DNA of 9,981 nt from assembly GCA_946408295.1 (NCBI GenBank), contig CAMJRT010000029.1, positions 1-9,981 on the forward strand, in the 5' to 3' direction. The notes beneath the pieces are model-generated. The model saw only the letters and a list, made by a program, of their open reading frames with translations. It was not told the DNA's origin and did not search any database. Numbering within the stretch: position 1 is the stretch's first letter; every line of letters starts with the position of its first letter. Positions 4,183 through 9,563 of the stretch are shown piece by piece. Made by a program: the position numbers and the translations under genes. The DNA comes from an uncultured Bacteroidales bacterium (GTDB lineage Bacteria; Bacteroidota; Bacteroidia; Bacteroidales; UBA932).

Positions 4183-4806
4183 TTAGTCCTCCACCATTAC
4201 ATAAGAACCTTTGGCTCCGGGAATGGAACCTTTAACGACAAGCAGGTTGTTTTCAGGGATTACCTTGACCACTTCGAGGTTGAACACCTTGACCCGGTCA
4301 CCGCCCATCCGGCCGGCCATACGCATTCCGGGGAATACGCGGGAAGGCCAGGAAGATGCGCCCATAGAGCCGGGGTGACGAAGACGGTTGTGCTGACCGT
4401 GGGTCTGGCCGCCGACACCGGCGAAGCCGTGACGCTTCACGACGCCCTGAAAGCCCTTGCCTTTGGAAGTACCGACGACATCCACGAACTTGACCGACGT
4501 GAAAATGTCAGCCACCGTGAGGGTGTCGCCTAATTTGAGTTCCCCGGCAAAGTCGGCCTTGAACTCGGCCAGTTTGCGCTTGGGAGTGGTTCCTGCCTTT
4601 TCGAAGTGTCCCATCAGGGACTTGCCGGCGTGTTTTTCTTTCATTTCGTCATAGGCAAGCTGTACAGCGGCATAACCATCTTTTTCGACTGTACGAATTT
4701 GCGTGACAACACACGGACCAGCCTCGATGACGGTGCATGGAATATTCTTTCCATCAGCACCGAAAACGGAAGTCATTCCGATTTTCTTTCCAATTAATCC
4801 AGGCAT
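4183..4806 (-). CDS. rplC: Large ribosomal subunit protein L3
   Basis: L3 is a primary 50S assembly protein that reaches toward the peptidyl transferase centre and the factor-binding region. The 207-residue product starts [15 protein letters not shown], has the beta-barrel core, and carries the central extension with [20 protein letters not shown] and [10 protein letters not shown] that approaches the active site; the C-terminus is [15 protein letters not shown]. It is the first gene of the operon in this window. In most bacteria rpsJ (S10) comes immediately before it, but here a promoter and then a divergent peptidase gene occupy that space. The leader before ATG 4806 is about 55-60 nt, A+T-rich, and ends in AACCAAACCA with no Shine-Dalgarno sequence, as is common for Bacteroidota ribosomal genes. 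Confidence 0.98.
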
Positions 4807-4842
4807 TGGTTTGGTTAATTAATTGATAATAAATAATTTAAT

Positions 4843-4865
4843 GCCCACAATCCAATTTTGTGGGC
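4843..4865 (-). promoter_or_regulatory. Inverted repeat / RNA hairpin at the start of the rplC transcript
   Basis: GCCCACAA (4865-4858 on the minus strand) and TTGTGGGC (4850-4843) form a perfect 8-bp dyad with a 7-nt loop. It begins 3 nt after the -7 box, so the first arm should coincide with the transcription start. No T-run follows on either strand, so it is not an ordinary terminator. It could be a 5'-terminal RNA hairpin affecting stability or autoregulation, or a DNA operator for a dimeric protein. Confidence 0.6.
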
Positions 4866-4867
4866 TG

Positions 4868-4898
4868 CAAATATACGACTTAATTTTCAAATATCAAA
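4868..4898 (-). promoter_or_regulatory. Promoter of the rplC-rpsC operon
   Basis: On the minus strand TTTG (4898-4895) is followed by exactly 19 nt and TATATTTG (4875-4868), a perfect match to the Bacteroidota primary sigma factor consensus. The extended context TCGTATATTTGCAG resembles the -7 regions before the peptidase gene and fabF. The predicted start is near 4863, about 57 nt before the rplC ATG. It is back-to-back with the peptidase promoter. Confidence 0.85.
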
Positions 4899-4903
4899 AT
4901 TTA

Positions 4904-4967
4904 ATACTTCCGCCTCGGAAAAGAAAATTTCATTTGCTTTTCTCCCGGCTGGCTCGTATTTTTGCAG
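4904..4967 (+). repeat. Promoter-bearing repeat, copy A (inverted partner at 8998-9060)
   Basis: These 64 bp before the peptidase gene match the minus strand at 9060-8998, before fabF, at 52 of 64 aligned columns with one 1-nt gap (about 81%). Shared blocks include CGCCTCGGAAAA upstream of the -33 box, CATTTG at the -33 box, TTTTCTC and CGGCT in the spacer, and TCGTAT-TTTGC at the -7 box. The spacer and the upstream block need not be conserved for a promoter, so common descent or an added regulatory role is likely. Confidence 0.7.
4933..4964 (+). promoter_or_regulatory. Promoter of the prolyl oligopeptidase gene
   Basis: TTTG (4933-4936), 20 nt, then TATTTTTG (4957-4964), a perfect -7 match. 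Transcription would start near 4969, leaving a leader of about 25 nt before ATG 4994. It lies inside repeat copy A. Confidence 0.8.
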
Positions 4968-4993
4968 TCCGGAACAAATATATTCCATAAAAT

Positions 4994-7099
4994 ATGAAGA
5001 CGTTGAAATACTTTTCCTGGATGACAATGACGGCGATTTTGGCGGGGGCCTGCGCCCCCCGGGTTCCCCAGACGCGGGAAGACGACACGGTGGATGTCTA
5101 TTTCGGAACGGAGGTGGCCGACCCCTATCGTTGGCTGGAAGATGACAACTCCCCGGAGACGGCCGCCTGGGTGGAAGCCCAGAACAAAGCGACCCATTAT
5201 TACCTGCAGCACATTCCTTTCCGCGCGCGCCTGCTCGACAGACTTAAAGAGGTAAGCAACTACGAGCGCGTCAGCGCCCCCCGGCACCAGCGGAACGGAA
5301 AATGGTACTTTTCCCGCAATGATGGTACGCAGAACCAGAATGTCCTGTACGAAATGGACGAGCCGGGCGGGGAGCCGCGGGTGTTTCTCGACCCCAACAC
5401 CCTGAGCGAAGACGGTACGGTCGCCCTCAAAGGCACTTCCTTCAACAAGGACGGCAGCCTGTTGGCCTACTGCATTTCGCGCAGCGGCAGCGACTGGCAG
5501 GAATTTTATGTAATGGACGTCAAGACGGGCGCCTTGCTCGATGACCACATCCAATGGGCCAAATTCTCGGGTGCCGCCTGGTGGGGGAACGGTTTCTTCT
5601 ACAGCGCTTACGGCATTCCCGAAGAGGGTCACGAATTTTCAGTCAAAAACGAGGGGCACAAAGTCTATTATCATCAAATAGGCACCCCGCAGAGCGAAGA
5701 CCGCGTTTTCTATGAAAATCCGGCGGAACCCCTGCGCTTCTACACCCTTACGACCAACGAGGAGGAGACGATGGCCTTCTTGTCCGAAGACGGGGCGGAC
5801 ATCGGCAACCACCTGTATGTGATGGACCTGAACAACGAGCAGGCGGGATTCGTGCAGATGACCCCGGATATGCGGCACCATTGCTACCCCGTGCAGACGG
5901 ACGGCACCCGAATCTATCTGATGACCAACCTGGACGCCCCGATGAACCGGTTGGTGGTCGCCGACCTGCGCCGCCCGGACTGGAAACACTGGAAGACCCT
6001 TCTGGGCAAGGCGGACTGCGTGCTGGACGATGTCTGTTTCGCCGGAGAGAAAATCATCGCCTCCTATCTGGAAGATGCGTCCGTCCACAGTTACGCCTAC
6101 ACGCTTGATGGAGGGAGCGGCACCCCGATCGCCCTTCCGGGCATCGGCAACGCCTATTTCACGGGTCGCAAGGGAGAAGATTGGTGCTACTACGGCTATT
6201 CTTCCATCACCGCCCCCGACACCATCTACGACCTGGACCTCAACAGCCTGCAAAGCAAGGTGTATTACGCGCCCAAGACGAATTTCGACCTCTCGGACTT
6301 CGAGACCGTCCAAGTCTTTTTCCCCGGCAAGGACGGGACGCGCATCCCGATGTTCCTGACCTATAAGAAAGGTCTGACGCTCAACGGGGAAAACCCCGTC
6401 TATCTCTATGGCTACGGCGGATTCAACATCTCCCTGACCCCGGACTTCGCCGCAACCCGCGTCCCCTTCTTCGAGGCGGGCGGCATCTATGCCCAGGTAA
6501 CCCTGCGGGGCGGCGGAGAGTATGGAGAAGCGTGGCATTTGGCGGGCACGAAGATGAACAAGCAGAATGTTTTCGACGACTTTATCGGGGCGGCCGAATG
6601 GCTCATCGCCCAAGGCTATACTTCTCCGTCCAAACTCGCCATCGTGGGCGGCTCCAACGGCGGTCTGTTGGTCGGTGCCTGTATGACGCAGCGTCCTGAC
6701 CTGTTCGCCGTGGCCGTTCCGCGCGTAGGCGTAATGGATATGCTGCGCTACCACAAGTTCACCATCGGCTGGAACTGGGCGTCCGATTACGGCACCAGCG
6801 AAGAGAGCGAAGAAATGTTCCGCTACCTGCTCGGCTACTCCCCGCTGCACAACCTCAAGCCCGGCACCGTCTATCCCGCCACCCTGGTGACCACCGCCGA
6901 CCACGACGACCGGGTCGTGCCCGCGCACTCCTTCAAATTTGCCGCGACCTTGCAGAAAGACCAGGCCGGCAGCGCCCCCGTCCTCATCCGCATCGACACC
7001 AAAGCCGGTCACGGCGGCGGCAAGCCCCTCTCCAAAATCCTCGAAGAACAAGCCGACATCTACGCCTTCATCCTTCAGAACCTCGGAGAAAAGTACTAG
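4994..7099 (+). CDS. Prolyl oligopeptidase (S9A family), probable lipoprotein
   Basis: A 701-residue serine peptidase that would cut short proline-containing peptides after proline, similar to porcine prolyl oligopeptidase (EC 3.4.21.26). The N-terminal DPYRWLED (43-50) and a seven-bladed propeller region (about 80-430) precede an alpha/beta-hydrolase domain. The catalytic triad is visible: Ser554 in GGSNGG, Asp638 in DHDDRVVP, His673 in AGHGGGKP. Tyr474 (LYGYGGF) matches the oxyanion tyrosine; Trp595 and Arg640 match substrate-binding residues. Residues 1-20 form a hydrophobic signal ending LAGAC; Cys20 may be a lipidation site, although the residue at -3 is Ala rather than the preferred Leu. 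The enzyme is therefore probably periplasmic or envelope-anchored, suggesting peptide scavenging rather than cytosolic turnover. It has its own promoter, is divergent from the ribosomal operon, and converges on an Xre-type gene. No truncation or frameshift is seen. Confidence 0.95.
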   Translation: MKTLKYFSWMTMTAILAGACAPRVPQTREDDTVDVYFGTEVADPYRWLEDDNSPETAAWVEAQNKATHYYLQHIPFRARLLDRLKEVSNYERVSAPRHQRNGKWYFSRNDGTQNQNVLYEMDEPGGEPRVFLDPNTLSEDGTVALKGTSFNKDGSLLAYCISRSGSDWQEFYVMDVKTGALLDDHIQWAKFSGAAWWGNGFFYSAYGIPEEGHEFSVKNEGHKVYYHQIGTPQSEDRVFYENPAEPLRFYTLTTNEEETMAFLSEDGADIGNHLYVMDLNNEQAGFVQMTPDMRHHCYPVQTDGTRIYLMTNLDAPMNRLVVADLRRPDWKHWKTLLGKADCVLDDVCFAGEKIIASYLEDASVHSYAYTLDGGSGTPIALPGIGNAYFTGRKGEDWCYYGYSSITAPDTIYDLDLNSLQSKVYYAPKTNFDLSDFETVQVFFPGKDGTRIPMFLTYKKGLTLNGENPVYLYGYGGFNISLTPDFAATRVPFFEAGGIYAQVTLRGGGEYGEAWHLAGTKMNKQNVFDDFIGAAEWLIAQGYTSPSKLAIVGGSNGGLLVGACMTQRPDLFAVAVPRVGVMDMLRYHKFTIGWNWASDYGTSEESEEMFRYLLGYSPLHNLKPGTVYPATLVTTADHDDRVVPAHSFKFAATLQKDQAGSAPVLIRIDTKAGHGGGKPLSKILEEQADIYAFILQNLGEKY

Positions 7100-7132
7100 G
7101 GGGCAAAATGTAACGAGGAAATTTTCAATTTT

Positions 7133-7155
7133 AAGGGGAACTTACCCTTCTTTTT
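7133..7155 (+). terminator. Possible weak terminator of the peptidase gene
   Basis: AAGGG (7133-7137) can pair with CCCTT (7145-7149) around a 7-nt loop, followed by C and five T. The stem is short and overlaps the 3' end of the convergent Xre-type gene, so this is a weak candidate. No better terminator is visible after the peptidase stop codon. Confidence 0.3.
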
Positions 7156-7564
7156 CGGCATCTTTCCCGAATTGGGCGAGTTGGGTGCGGAGGTGGCGGA
7201 TGATGAAATCTTTGTCGTCGATGCAGCCGTTGAGACGATCCACTTCCCGATGAAGTTTTTCGACATCGTCGCGAAGACGGACGATTTCCAGCCGAAGGTC
7301 GGACACCATATTCTCGAAGGCGCTGCGCTCATCCTTGAGCAAGGAAGGTTTGTCTTCTTCGTCTTCTATCAATTCCGACAACGGGACATTCAAGAGGTTG
7401 GCGATTTCTTCCATCCGTCCATAGAGCAGGCGGGTGCCGCCGTAAGACTCGACCAACTTGTAGGTGCGCTCCTCGATACCCAGTTGCTCCGCCATCCACG
7501 CCTGCGTGTATCCGAGTTCTTTCCGCCGCTCCCGAATGGCCTTTTTGATGGAGTTGTCATTCAT
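7142..7564 (-). CDS. Xre-family helix-turn-helix protein with C-terminal coiled coil
   Basis: A 140-residue predicted cytoplasmic DNA-binding protein. Residues about 6-66 form a Cro/C1-type (HTH_3) domain: IRERRKELGYTQAWMAEQLGI gives the first helices, ERTYKLVESYGG lies in or near the recognition region, and MEEIANLLNVPLSELI closes the fold. An acidic linker (68-72) leads to a highly charged heptad-like segment (about 78-132, with EIVRLRDDVEKLHREVDRL) that probably dimerises. There is no ligand-binding or enzymatic domain. It resembles stand-alone Bacteroidota regulators of unknown target; no toxin gene lies beside it, so an antitoxin role is not supported. It converges on the peptidase gene (stop codons 42 nt apart) and lies downstream of the fabF terminator with its own -7 box. 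Regulation of either neighbour is possible but unproven. Confidence 0.85.
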   Translation of the reverse strand: MNDNSIKKAIRERRKELGYTQAWMAEQLGIEERTYKLVESYGGTRLLYGRMEEIANLLNVPLSELIEDEEDKPSLLKDERSAFENMVSDLRLEIVRLRDDVEKLHREVDRLNGCIDDKDFIIRHLRTQLAQFGKDAEKEG

Positions 7565-7590
7565 CTCTTTCGTTACCTTGGTTGTGTCGG

Positions 7591-7621
7591 CAAAATTATT
7601 TCATAGGCAACAAAGAAAAAA
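7591..7621 (-). promoter_or_regulatory. Promoter of the Xre-type gene
   Basis: The minus strand has TAATTTTG (7598-7591), a perfect -7 match. At 19 nt spacing the -33 position reads TTTT (7621-7618), three of four consensus bases, and lies in the T-run of the fabF terminator. The leader would be about 23 nt. Confidence 0.5.
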
Positions 7622-7657
7622 GGAAGAAACCTTTCCCCGGGGGAATAGTTTCTTCCT
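7616..7657 (-). terminator. Strong intrinsic terminator of fabF
   Basis: On the minus strand AGGAAGAAAC (7657-7648) pairs with GTTTCTTCCT (7630-7621), 10 bp. After a 2 x 2 internal mismatch an inner stem TTCCC/GGGAA closes a 3-nt loop. Together with the last stem base, six T follow the hairpin (7621-7616). It lies about 40 nt after the fabF stop. Confidence 0.9.
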
Positions 7658-7696
7658 GTTTCAGAGATGTTTTCGCCTTGGCGCGCGAAAAGGAAA

Positions 7697-8953
7697 TTAT
7701 ATCTTGCGGAAAGCGATGCAGGCGTTGTGTCCACCGAAGCCCAGGGAGTTGGACAGGGCCAGGGTCAAATCGACACGACGGGCTTCATTGGGCGTATAGT
7801 CCAGGTCGCAGGCCGGGTCGGGCGTGTCCAGATGGATGGTGGGAGGGACAATGCCTTCTTTCAACGCGAGGATGGCCGCGATGGCTTCCACCGCACCGGC
7901 GGCCCCCAACAGGTGACCGGTCATCGACTTGGTGGAATTGATGTGGGCCTTGTAGGCGTCGGCACCGAGGGCCAGCTTGTAGGATTGGGTTTCCGCCGGG
8001 TCGTTGAGGCCGGTGCCCGTCCCGTGCGCATTGATGTGCAGCACGTCTTCGGAGGTGTATCGGGCTTCTTTCAGGCATTGCTTGATGGCTTCCGCCTGCG
8101 TCAGGCCGGTGGGATTGGGGGCCGCCACGTGATAGGCGTCGCAGGTGTGTCCGTAGCCTACCACTTCGGCAAAAATCTCCGCTCCCCGGGCCCGGGCGTG
8201 CTCATACTCTTCCAGGACGAGGGCACCGGCTCCTTCGCCCATCACGAAACCGGCCCGGTTGGCATTGAACGGCAGGGAGGCATATTGCGGATCCTCGCTG
8301 CGGGAAAGCGCACGGGCGTTGGCGAAAGCGGCGATACCCATCGGAATCAGGGGCGCTTCCGAACCGCCGGCGACAATGGCGTCGGCATAGCCGTGCTTGA
8401 TGGCGCGAAAGGCCTCTCCGATGGAGTTGGTGGAGGTAGCGCAAGCCGCTACGACGGTCAGGTTGGGGCCGCAGGCATTGTTGCGGATAGCGATGTTGCC
8501 GCCCGCGATGTTGGCAATCATCTTGGTAATGAAAGTCGGGGACACCATATGGGCACCCACCGTATACATCTTGACCGATTCGTTGTATTGCTGGAAAAAG
8601 CCGCCGACCCCGCTGCCCATATAGACACCCAGCCGGAACGGGTCGATATTGCCGCCTTCTTCCCCCTCTTTCGCCGCTTTCAGGCCGCTCAACCGCAGAG
8701 CCTCTTCGGCGGCAATCGTCGCAAACACCGTAAAGCGGTCCTGCTTACGGACAAAGGGGAGGTCGAGGCCCAGGGCGACGGGGTCGAAATCCTTGACCTC
8801 TGCGGCCACTTTGGAGGGGAGGTCATCCGTCGGGAAACTTTTGATGAAATCAATCCCGCAGACACCGTCCAGCAGGTTCTTCCAATAAGATGCCACATTA
8901 TGACCAATAGGGGTAACCGCGCCAAGGCCGGTAACGACGACTCTTTTTTCCAT
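7697..8953 (-). CDS. fabF: 3-oxoacyl-[acyl-carrier-protein] synthase II (KAS II)
   Basis: FabF condenses malonyl-ACP with acyl-ACP in the elongation cycle of type II fatty acid synthesis. The 418-residue product is a normal thiolase-fold KAS II: MEKRVVVTGLGAVTPIG at the start, nucleophile Cys171 in AACATSTNS, His310 in NAHGTGTGLND, Lys342 and His347 in STKSMTGHLLGAAG, and the GFGGHN loop (405-410) with the gatekeeper Phe406. The reading frame stays open upstream to 9187, but the added 78 residues would cover the promoter and have no family counterpart, so ATG 8953 is correct. The gene has its own promoter and terminator and appears monocistronic; acpP, which often sits directly before fabF, is not here. 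The sequence fits KAS II better than KAS I (FabB), and no polyketide or arylpolyene genes are nearby. Confidence 0.95.
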   Translation of the reverse strand: MEKRVVVTGLGAVTPIGHNVASYWKNLLDGVCGIDFIKSFPTDDLPSKVAAEVKDFDPVALGLDLPFVRKQDRFTVFATIAAEEALRLSGLKAAKEGEEGGNIDPFRLGVYMGSGVGGFFQQYNESVKMYTVGAHMVSPTFITKMIANIAGGNIAIRNNACGPNLTVVAACATSTNSIGEAFRAIKHGYADAIVAGGSEAPLIPMGIAAFANARALSRSEDPQYASLPFNANRAGFVMGEGAGALVLEEYEHARARGAEIFAEVVGYGHTCDAYHVAAPNPTGLTQAEAIKQCLKEARYTSEDVLHINAHGTGTGLNDPAETQSYKLALGADAYKAHINSTKSMTGHLLGAAGAVEAIAAILALKEGIVPPTIHLDTPDPACDLDYTPNEARRVDLTLALSNSLGFGGHNACIAFRKI

Positions 8954-8997
8954 AATCTTGTTGTACTCCGTTGTTTGCAGAGATTTATATTTCAATT

Positions 8998-9060
8998 CGG
9001 CAAAGATACGAACAAGCCGAGAGAAAAACAAATGAATATGATTTTCCGAGGCGAAAGCAT
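8998..9060 (-). repeat. Promoter-bearing repeat, copy B (inverted partner at 4904-4967)
   Basis: Read on the minus strand this 63-bp segment aligns with copy A over 64 columns with 12 differences including one gap. It lies wholly in the gap between the DUF4293 gene and fabF. The -33 and -7 boxes of both copies align with each other, and both copies point inward over the 4-kb segment holding the peptidase, Xre-type and fabF genes. I found no third copy in the window; the rplC promoter shares only the -7 block. Confidence 0.7.
9001..9032 (-). promoter_or_regulatory. Promoter of fabF
   Basis: On the minus strand TTTG (9032-9029), 20 nt, then TATCTTTG (9008-9001), a perfect -7 match. The start would be near 8996, leaving a leader of about 40 nt before ATG 8953. 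It lies within repeat copy B. I see no FapR- or FadR-like operator, only the upstream block shared with the peptidase promoter. Confidence 0.8.
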
Positions 9061-9104
9061 CAACCTGCAAGCGGGAACATACAACAAAGTTTGCAAAAAG
9101 CAAA

Positions 9105-9563
9105 TCAGTCCCGCCGCTTGCGGCGCTCCTTGTGCCGGCGCCGGGCTCCCTGACGCAGGCGGTAACTCGAACGCACCATCGCCTCATCCAGAAAAATATT
9201 GCGCAAGGCCAGCAGGTCCAGAATTACGCATACGAGCGGAAAGACGGCGGGAATGAGAAAAATCATCGCATCCGGCCGGCGGAAGAAAAAGTCGTAGGCC
9301 ACCACTCCCTGCAAACCCAGGTTCAGCAAGGCGGCAATCACCGTCAAACGCATTTGCAGGATTCGCCACTTATAGGTAAACAGGGAAGCCAGATCGGCCA
9401 CCAGGCAGGCAAGCACCAGATACAAGTAGAGCGAACGGTCGCAAAAACCGATATACTCGACGGCGCCCTCCGCACCGATGACGCGCGCGACATCCACCCA
9501 AAAGTAAGAAAGCGTCAGCGCAACGGCCAATCCCAAAAACAAGGTCTGAAATCTTTGCCACAT
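9105..9563 (-). CDS. DUF4293 family membrane protein
   Basis: A 152-residue inner-membrane protein of unknown function. Four hydrophobic segments are visible at about 6-27, 45-63, 71-92 and 99-120, followed by a cytoplasmic-type tail ending in an extremely basic RRRHKERRKRRD. The N-terminus MWQRFQTLFLGLA (family members usually begin MIQR-QT) and the LDEAMVRSSYRLR stretch (family: DEA-V-S--R-R) after the last helix fit DUF4293, which I know from Bacteroidota. No catalytic motif is visible. It lies 151 nt upstream of fabF on the same strand, but the fabF promoter in that gap argues against a shared operon. It is divergent from the nucleoside phosphorylase gene. The family assignment is from recall of conserved segments and should be confirmed by profile search. 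Confidence 0.8.
   Translation of the reverse strand: MWQRFQTLFLGLAVALTLSYFWVDVARVIGAEGAVEYIGFCDRSLYLYLVLACLVADLASLFTYKWRILQMRLTVIAALLNLGLQGVVAYDFFFRRPDAMIFLIPAVFPLVCVILDLLALRNIFLDEAMVRSSYRLRQGARRRHKERRKRRD

Follow-up and report, generated by a model that had tools for sequence, protein, structure and literature searches.

The window analysed here is a stretch of 9,981 nucleotides (nt) from an uncultured Bacteroidales bacterium (contig CAMJRT010000029.1). It carries two closely similar promoter stretches in inverted orientation, one upstream of a gene for a prolyl oligopeptidase of family S9 and the other upstream of fabF, which encodes a beta-ketoacyl-ACP synthase. Judged from comparative sequence analysis, both probably belong to a family of short non-autonomous mobile elements that insert in promoter -7 boxes and appear to re-form a promoter in doing so. 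Numerous dispersed copies of the same hairpin occur in some Bacteroidales genomes from gut and rumen, its arms change together, most of its arrays end in a -7 box, filled and empty sites can be paired between two Prevotella bins, and units of different sequence are stacked on one another.

The window copies, their hairpin and their family

The two stretches, 4904-4967 on the plus strand and 9060-8998 on the minus strand, share about 53 identities over 65 columns with one 1-nt gap. Their local alignment score is 39, against a mean of 9.9 (standard deviation 1.5, maximum 19) in 2000 dinucleotide-preserving shuffles of two 160-nt stretches. A first-pass annotation of the window had reported the match as 52 of 64 columns and had located -33 and -7 boxes in both stretches. 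The match far exceeds the shuffle control, and both boxes can be read in each copy. The primary (sigma-ABfr) promoter consensus of Bacteroidota is TAnnTTTG at -7 with TTTG near -33 (available text of PMC7366714), and the spacer between the -33 TTTG and the -7 box is 20 nt in both copies. Copy 1, an imperfect hairpin with its promoter, lies at 4900..4966 (+) and scores 76.5 bits (E 1.4e-24) with R1, one of two home-made covariance models (R1 and the broader R2) whose E-values are rough. Its -33 TTTG (4933..4936) adjoins and partly lies within the 3' arm, and its -7 box TATTTTTG (4957..4964) is 29 nt from the ATG at 4994 of the peptidase gene (4994..7099, +; PF02897 350 bits, PF00326 223 bits). 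The core of copy 2 lies at 8999..9064 (-) and scores 77.4 bits (E 6.6e-25), with a -33 TTTG at 9032-9029 and a -7 box TATCTTTG at 9001..9008, 47 nt from the ATG at 8953 of fabF (7697..8953, -; PF00109 176 bits, PF02801 122 bits). No other R1 match was found in the window at E <= 1e-5; both window copies are training copies of R1, and R1 and R2 were each built from sets that include both.

The block shared by the two copies folds as an imperfect inverted repeat (RNAfold). Read according to the family structure, copy 1 pairs AATAC (4903-4907) with GTATT (4956-4960), GCC (4912-4914) with GGC (4947-4949) and GGAAAAG (4917-4923) with CTTTTCT (4937-4943), so that the paired arms span 4903..4960 (+). 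Fold and family covariation agree on this pairing, and RNAfold differs slightly in the outer part. A complete unit is about 73-90 bp long and consists of the imperfect hairpin preceded on its left by a short GC-rich linker. In the window and in its nearest relative the 5' side runs through the GC-rich linker, the outer arm TATAC, unpaired TTCC, GCC, unpaired TC and GGAAAAGCAAA to a small loop, and the 3' side continues with TTTGCTTTTCT, CTC, GGC, unpaired TTGCTC, GTATA and TTTG. The 3' arm thus contains the -33 TTTG, and the end of the outer arm plus TTTG makes up the -7 box. A mini-hairpin within the linker was considered and dropped, as stems of at least 5 perfect pairs occur in 8 of 107 Prevotella arrays against 4 after shuffling; the segment is named here only as a GC-rich linker.

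The pairing is maintained while the sequence changes. A plain MAFFT alignment of 21 copies pairs in 88.4% of cells, against 41-56% when the partner is slid, and contains 22 double-changed cells compared with 9.2 after shuffling. The corresponding values are 99 versus 30.8 in a model-fitted alignment of 57 copies and 247 versus 67.3 in one of 93 copies; alignments fitted in this way (A4, A7 and A8) are biased towards the model structure, and A1 is not fitted. The conserved block upstream of the -33 box, for which the first-pass annotation had offered a shared bound regulator as one explanation, is the left hairpin arm. Because it covaries with its partner, the regulator reading is weakened, and the block is probably the left arm of a mobile hairpin rather than a regulator site.

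The closest relative of the window is locus L001 of a 2.1-Mb yak-rumen Bacteroidales bin (genome G001), with 93% protein identity for the peptidase and 93.2% DNA identity over 7.1 kb. G001 retains both window copies at orthologous genes (copy 1 at L001:5911-5977, copy 2 at L170:709-774), and in this one close relative examined, the conservation of spacer and upstream bases, whose loss would have spoken against a shared cassette, persists. With the peptidase copy as BLAST query, G001 yields 25 places at E < 0.03 and 37 rows at E <= 10; R1 yields 37 rows at E <= 0.01, which correspond to 33 places and 4 reverse-strand matches to the same palindromes. All match counts are rows in this sense, some being reverse-strand matches to one palindrome. 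R1 matches 19 of 61 genomes (G001 and 60 relatives) at E <= 0.01, R2 matches 26 of 40 genomes reached via named loci at E <= 1e-3, and at E <= 1e-4 R2 has at least one match in 47 of the 295 Bacteroidales genomes sampled, with 17 candidates scored per genome. The richest genomes are Prevotellaceae MN60 (G094, 62 R2 rows), RUG209 (G097, 63), Prevotella sp. ne3005 (G093, 37) and the bins G099 (100), G100 (99), G101 (76), G102 (92) and G103 (83). As to specificity, R2 gives 10 matches at E <= 0.05 in the 941 kb of 80 named loci, and 248 of the 295 sampled genomes have no match at E <= 1e-4.

The first-pass annotation had proposed a genome-wide search for copies upstream of start codons, with spread of a ready-made promoter and a local duplication or two-gene regulon as competing outcomes. 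Copy numbers of 33 places in G001 and as many as about 100 in Prevotella bins bear out the spread, with many dispersed copies upstream of genes in relatives, and do not fit the duplication or two-gene regulon, which were rejected. The element is likewise rejected as a known Rfam RNA family: window positions 4700-9200 gave no covariance-model match at E <= 1, and at E <= 0.1 a tRNA was the only match in five element loci. A plasmid collection contained no match to the fabF copy.

Copies that retain only the right half are common in the G001 set (L102, L105, L106, L107, the second match of L104 and the third match of L095), and a left half alone is seen in one weak case, L110. L056 lacks the left arm that L057 has but retains the -7 box. 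Such right-half remnants fit selection for the promoter half only.

Probable insertion at the -7 box

Positions were surveyed in 40 stretches each of G099 and G100, about 1.5 Mb in all, picked around known copies or syntenic places. R2 finds 171 copies here, which form 136 arrays (104 single, 29 double and 3 triple); six were dropped for short flanks and 130 analysed. The -7 box TAnnTTTG terminates 107 of the 130, a count that is partly built in, as the search model contains part of the right end, and a TTTG lies 19-20 nt upstream in 102 of these 107. The box-bearing arrays face genes, because 89 of the 107 have a gene start (the start codon of an open reading frame (ORF) of at least 150 codons) within 100 nt off their right end and 11 off their left; 1294 of 6000 random positions have a start codon within 100 nt. 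The pair of boxes at the right end is a predicted active promoter, in which transcription would begin about 7 nt past the -7 box. In G001 the genes downstream are mixed and, read from their first residues, include purA, pyrD, fabF, genes for FtsX-like and TamB-like proteins, a UDP-sugar dehydrogenase and an S9 peptidase, and others. Near-identical promoter sequences thus stand before non-homologous genes and are present or absent between relatives, which is the pattern expected of putative mobile promoters.

Comparison of G099 with G100 covers 365 kb of aligned sequence in the fetched stretches, whose long aligned pieces are mostly 91-99% identical, and reveals 41 length differences of 45-400 bp. 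Of these, 25 measure 55-100 bp; the element takes part in 11 of the 25, and one more touches a box-less match. Three sites are filled in one bin and empty in the other: L250 has 81 bp where L231 is empty, L273 has 73 bp where L252 is empty, and L300 has 87 bp where L283 is empty, with some extra changes on the gene side. At all three the empty host sequence is ...TAnnTTTG..., and the order in the filled site is host TAnnTTTG, element, element TAnn, TTTG, host. Two of the three keep the host nn (CT, AT) to the left and have another nn (CC, AC) to the right; the right TAnn is therefore the element's own and the shared core is TTTG. Arrays differ as well. L237 and L256 have 3 and 2 units, and since the extra unit has a different stem, an array can be extended by insertion at the -7 box that a previous unit left; in L230/L249 the additional unit repeats the one next to it.

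Fifty-nine of the 130 arrays could be mapped on both sides between the two bins (71 were unmappable), shared arrays being counted from both genomes. The 52 box-bearing ones comprise 29 shared with equal units, 16 shared with a different number and 7 unmatched in the other genome; 2 of the mapped box-less arrays are shared and 5 absent. Three of the 7 unmatched arrays are the filled sites described above, L229 faces a decayed remnant, two in L274 face divergent sequence, and the seventh, in L284, faces a different element whose own array was dropped for a short flank. L284:3590-3656 (G100) and L300:19592-19668 (G099) are one promoter with different element copies, which suggests replacement or two independent insertions.

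The 45 arrays common to both bins could also be expected of a conserved, regulated promoter in which the palindrome is an operator and the regulon is vertically inherited. The nearest relative does have both window copies at the same genes, and the motif CGCxTCGG...CTCGGCTT is well conserved. We nevertheless regard this explanation as very improbable: the downstream genes look varied, the palindrome changes in sequence from copy to copy while its pairing persists, and copies stack in tandem and differ between G099 and G100 by insertion and by unit number.

An insertion into the -7 box also accounts for the arrangement upstream of fabF. This copy has an extra 5' part, a GC-rich linker from 9075 on, and the full insert, including the linker CCCGCTTGCAGG, probably occupies 9003..9075 (-). 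At 73 nt it matches the 73-74-nt period at which tandem units repeat in the nearest relative (L093). Directly upstream, at 9076..9104 (-), is apparently an older promoter split by the insertion, with TTTG at 9104-9101, a 19-nt spacer and TATGTT at 9081-9076, by analogy with the filled and empty sites. The order of TTTG, 19 nt, TATGTT, 73-nt unit and TG of the new box fits the insertion scheme; the stretch 9076..9104 is not kept in the G001 orthologue. For the peptidase copy, rplC beside the peptidase gene was matched by tblastn in L001 only among the 80 named loci, which allows no deeper empty-site comparison.

We propose that the element inserts in the -7 box TAnnTTTG of Bacteroidota promoters, probably by way of a hairpin-recognising recombinase supplied in trans. 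The host's own TAnnTT(TG) would stay on the far side of the insert, the terminal TAnn of the element would join the host T(T)TG, and the 3' arm would bring a -33 TTTG, so that the gene regains a complete promoter at roughly the former distance. A second element may then insert at the new end, giving head-to-tail arrays; stacking is possible because that end is itself a -7 box. Later the promoter half would tend to persist and the left arm to decay. Most mobile elements at promoters break them or bring a promoter by accident, whereas this hairpin appears to be aimed at the -7 box and to leave a complete promoter. It could thereby multiply at little cost in the most fragile part of a compact genome, and could rewire housekeeping genes in their -33 region, spacer and upstream sequence, which would explain the long spacers and upstream blocks common to some Bacteroidota promoters. 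The filled and empty promoters offer a natural set for measuring the role of the -33, spacer and upstream parts.

TAnnTTTG occurs within 40 nt to the left of the element in 47 of the 107 arrays, 36 of them at one fixed distance, compared with 4 of 642 control windows. In 18 of the 25 clean arrays nn is the same on both sides, against 4.5 expected from 90 element-free host promoters and 7.5 (maximum 17 in 5000) when shuffled among copies; the clean set is 25 of 44, the other 19 having been set aside by a regular expression as another unit, and at least one orthologous pair is counted twice. Full nn agreement is seen in one of the three filled/empty sites only. The agreement could mean that the element arm (AAGGTAC and variants, complementary to GTACCTT) helps to choose the target; it could also mean that a target-linker palindrome was later corrected to perfection. 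A more specific version, which we offer as speculation with low odds of being right, is a new kind of tiny single-strand-hairpin mobile DNA whose outer arm acts as a guide that pairs with its own right end and with the host -7 box, perhaps while RNA polymerase opens the box, and which restores the promoter and is moved in trans by an enzyme other than Y1/RAYT. If such a guide exists, subfamilies with other outer arms would have other targets, such as 7-bp satellites and tRNA flanks. Variant copies with a different outer arm lie directly 5' of an antisense tRNA gene in four genomes (L162:673-734, L165:667-728, L166:711-768 and L157:668-731). Three of these tRNAs are tRNA-Gly(GCC) by ARAGORN, and the fourth, cut at a contig end, was identified by Rfam only.

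Several observations weigh against the insertion reading. Twenty-three of the 130 arrays have no -7 box, and their gene starts (4 right, 3 left) show no orientation; not all members of the family are therefore promoters. On the plain alignment the outer helix pairs in only 72% of cells, and further pair types, at 13 against 11.0, are reached in 60 of 500 shuffles and are not exceptional. Among G101-G103, 149 kb of pairwise alignment yielded no element difference among the 5 length differences listed. Deletion between the flanking TTTG/TAnnTTTG repeats would leave the same empty site, so that the three filled sites, which we take as probable gains, are unproven in polarity when considered singly. 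No enzyme was found either: PF01797 at E <= 0.1 has no match in G099, G100 or G093, which hold about 100, 99 and 37 copies.

Candidate movers

These findings raise the question of which enzyme moves the element. Copying as such is indicated by a subfamily of 79 bp with the same hairpin type in G097, of which eight near-identical copies lie at separate places (L355:1033-1099, L355:3731-3797, L356:2006-2072, L357:1044-1110, L358:2006-2072, L359:1614-1680, L360:2725-2791 and L374:1014-1080), with one more diverged copy at L373:898-964. Their near identity at separate places has copying as its sole explanation. They lie mostly inside 7-bp satellites, (TTTTCAC)n or (TTGACCA)n, away from promoters. 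Identical scores in G097 and copies at contig ends in G038 had also raised the possibility of an autonomous insertion sequence (IS) bounded by elements; for G097 this was dropped, as its copies are a separate 79-bp subfamily in satellite-like flanks, and the ORFs between one inverted G097 pair look like ordinary genes.

Copies could also arise without a dedicated enzyme, through template switching at the microhomology TAnnTTTG and through tandem slippage, with help from the palindromes. The nn agreement described above (18 of 25 arrays, 4.5 expected) and the identical tandem units in L230 are in keeping with such a process. We consider it an unlikely origin of the family, for the ends match in three independent filled sites, stacked units differ in sequence, and the near-identical G097 copies have the same ends at several places. 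The mover is most likely a hairpin-recognising recombinase.

Hairpin repeats that are intergenic and occur in tandem pairs recall the repetitive extragenic palindromic (REP) sequences and bacterial interspersed mosaic elements moved by Y1 transposases (REP-associated tyrosine transposases, RAYT; TnpA-REP). RAYT subclass 2.6, a candidate here, is mostly from Bacteroidetes and is flanked by atypical hairpins (available text of PMC6006769). Two element pairs directly flank a RAYT-like gene in G030 (L141:4286-5257, -; NF047646 score 41 bits, cut-off 80), and the homologue in G001 is about 470 bp from a tandem pair. R2 matches at E <= 0.01 were found in 6 of 40 loci around Y1-like matches (L326, L327, L324, L307, L317 and L306), of which the Y1 match in L306 is false and the element matches in L307, L317 and L324 are roughly 1.4-2.5 kb from the Y1 stretch. 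PF01797 is matched at E <= 0.01 in G094 (3), G097 (2), G092 (2), G091 (4) and G061 (1), and at E <= 0.1 in G101 (4), G102 (3) and G103 (2); one G092 lead, in contig C41, is false and lies in a cytidylate-kinase-like ORF.

The distribution of these genes does not follow that of the element. No Y1 relative was detected in G099, G100 and G093 despite their 37-100 copies. Because PF01797 also misses the G001 protein, a divergent Y1 profile of G030-type proteins (11 relatives) was used, and at E <= 0.01 it has no match in 11 of 16 genomes, including G099, G100, G093, G094 and G097. A Y1 gene flanked by the repeat on both sides is seen in G030 only and one near it in G001; outside the loci listed above, the Y1 matches of the other copy-rich genomes do not lie beside an element. 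The hairpin-foot tag GT[AG]G is present in 3 of 107 arrays and CGTC in 11 of 107, and the G030 RAYT has TTAGTAG-type repeats of its own downstream. With no such gene in three copy-rich genomes and no GT[AG]G tag, we have set Y1/RAYT aside as a general driver and hold this origin to be improbable.

A hairpin site for a tyrosine recombinase, like integron attC or Xer sites, with site-specific insertion at a TTTG core, is a tentative possibility. With its outer arm, unpaired spacer, inner arm, offset bases and variable tip the hairpin is similar to attC in topology, and a 4-bp crossover core would account for the junction host-TAnn|TTTG|element|TTTG|host. Simple sites of integron attC are RYYYAAC and GTTRRRY. 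These R-box motifs are absent from the element, with GTTRRRY at the right end in 0 of 107 arrays and RYYYAAC at the left in 3 of 107.

Related systems and neighbouring repeats

The element belongs to a known kind, short non-autonomous palindromic mobile DNA and putative mobile promoters; what appears new is the -7-box target together with the apparent restoration of the promoter. No description of promoter-targeted, promoter-restoring repeats was found in the literature, judged from titles and abstract starts with subscription journals thinly covered, which is not proof of novelty. Like REPs, REPINs (paired REPs) and their RAYTs, the element is short, palindromic, intergenic, high in copy number, sometimes clustered or paired, and non-autonomous. 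It differs in being larger than REPs, which are given as 20-40 bp (available text of PMC3733652) or 21-65 nt (available text of PMC6006769), in sitting in promoters in one orientation, and in lacking both the GT[AG]G tag and, in three copy-rich genomes, a Y1 gene. With IS200/IS605 and their transposase-less derivatives it shares a subterminal hairpin, a short fixed target adjoining the insertion, the absence of a long target duplication and an end sequence resembling the target (in part from the available text of PMC6006769). No transposase is seen in the element and its target is the promoter -7 box, and the likeness is one of manner of working rather than of membership.

Within Bacteroidales, the BrickBuilt miniature inverted-repeat transposable element (MITE) of Porphyromonas gingivalis is also an intergenic repeat with promoter activity and has been called a possible mobile promoter, but it contains a 23-nt minisatellite, and insertion in or rebuilding of a -7 box is not reported in the available text (PMC4596501). 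PINSR, a repeat of Prevotella intermedia and P. nigrescens, is similarly lineage-specific, high-copy and intergenic; it is 188 bp long, has no promoter role described in the available text (PMC4755523), and is set apart by this description rather than by a comparison of consensus sequences. Considered as a MITE, the element has arms that are inverted repeats and TTTG on both sides, and no parent IS turned up, none having been systematically sought. Integron attC sites share the hairpin with unpaired spacer, offset bases and variable tip; the element differs in having no R-box motifs, and no gene cassettes were seen.

Other repeats and genes were encountered in the same sequences. In the window, rplC (4183-4806, -), the head of a ribosomal protein operon, is divergent from the peptidase gene. 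A second hairpin-type repeat of about 60-85 bp (CACGACTCGGCC...CTCGCTGCTCC) is present or absent between G099 and G100 at three places (L227: about 5400-5490; L291: about 13420-13495; L267: about 16595-16670), two of which adjoin AAAGTTCA-like repeats. A different RAYT-like gene in G001 (contig C36) has nearby hairpins carrying GGTAGGTC (L181:1099-1164 and 2387-2474) that look like ordinary GTAG-tagged REPs. A 2.3-kb stretch of Prevotella sp. ne3005 (L361:1622-3918, contig C8 of G093) contains four element-like hairpins that differ in kind.

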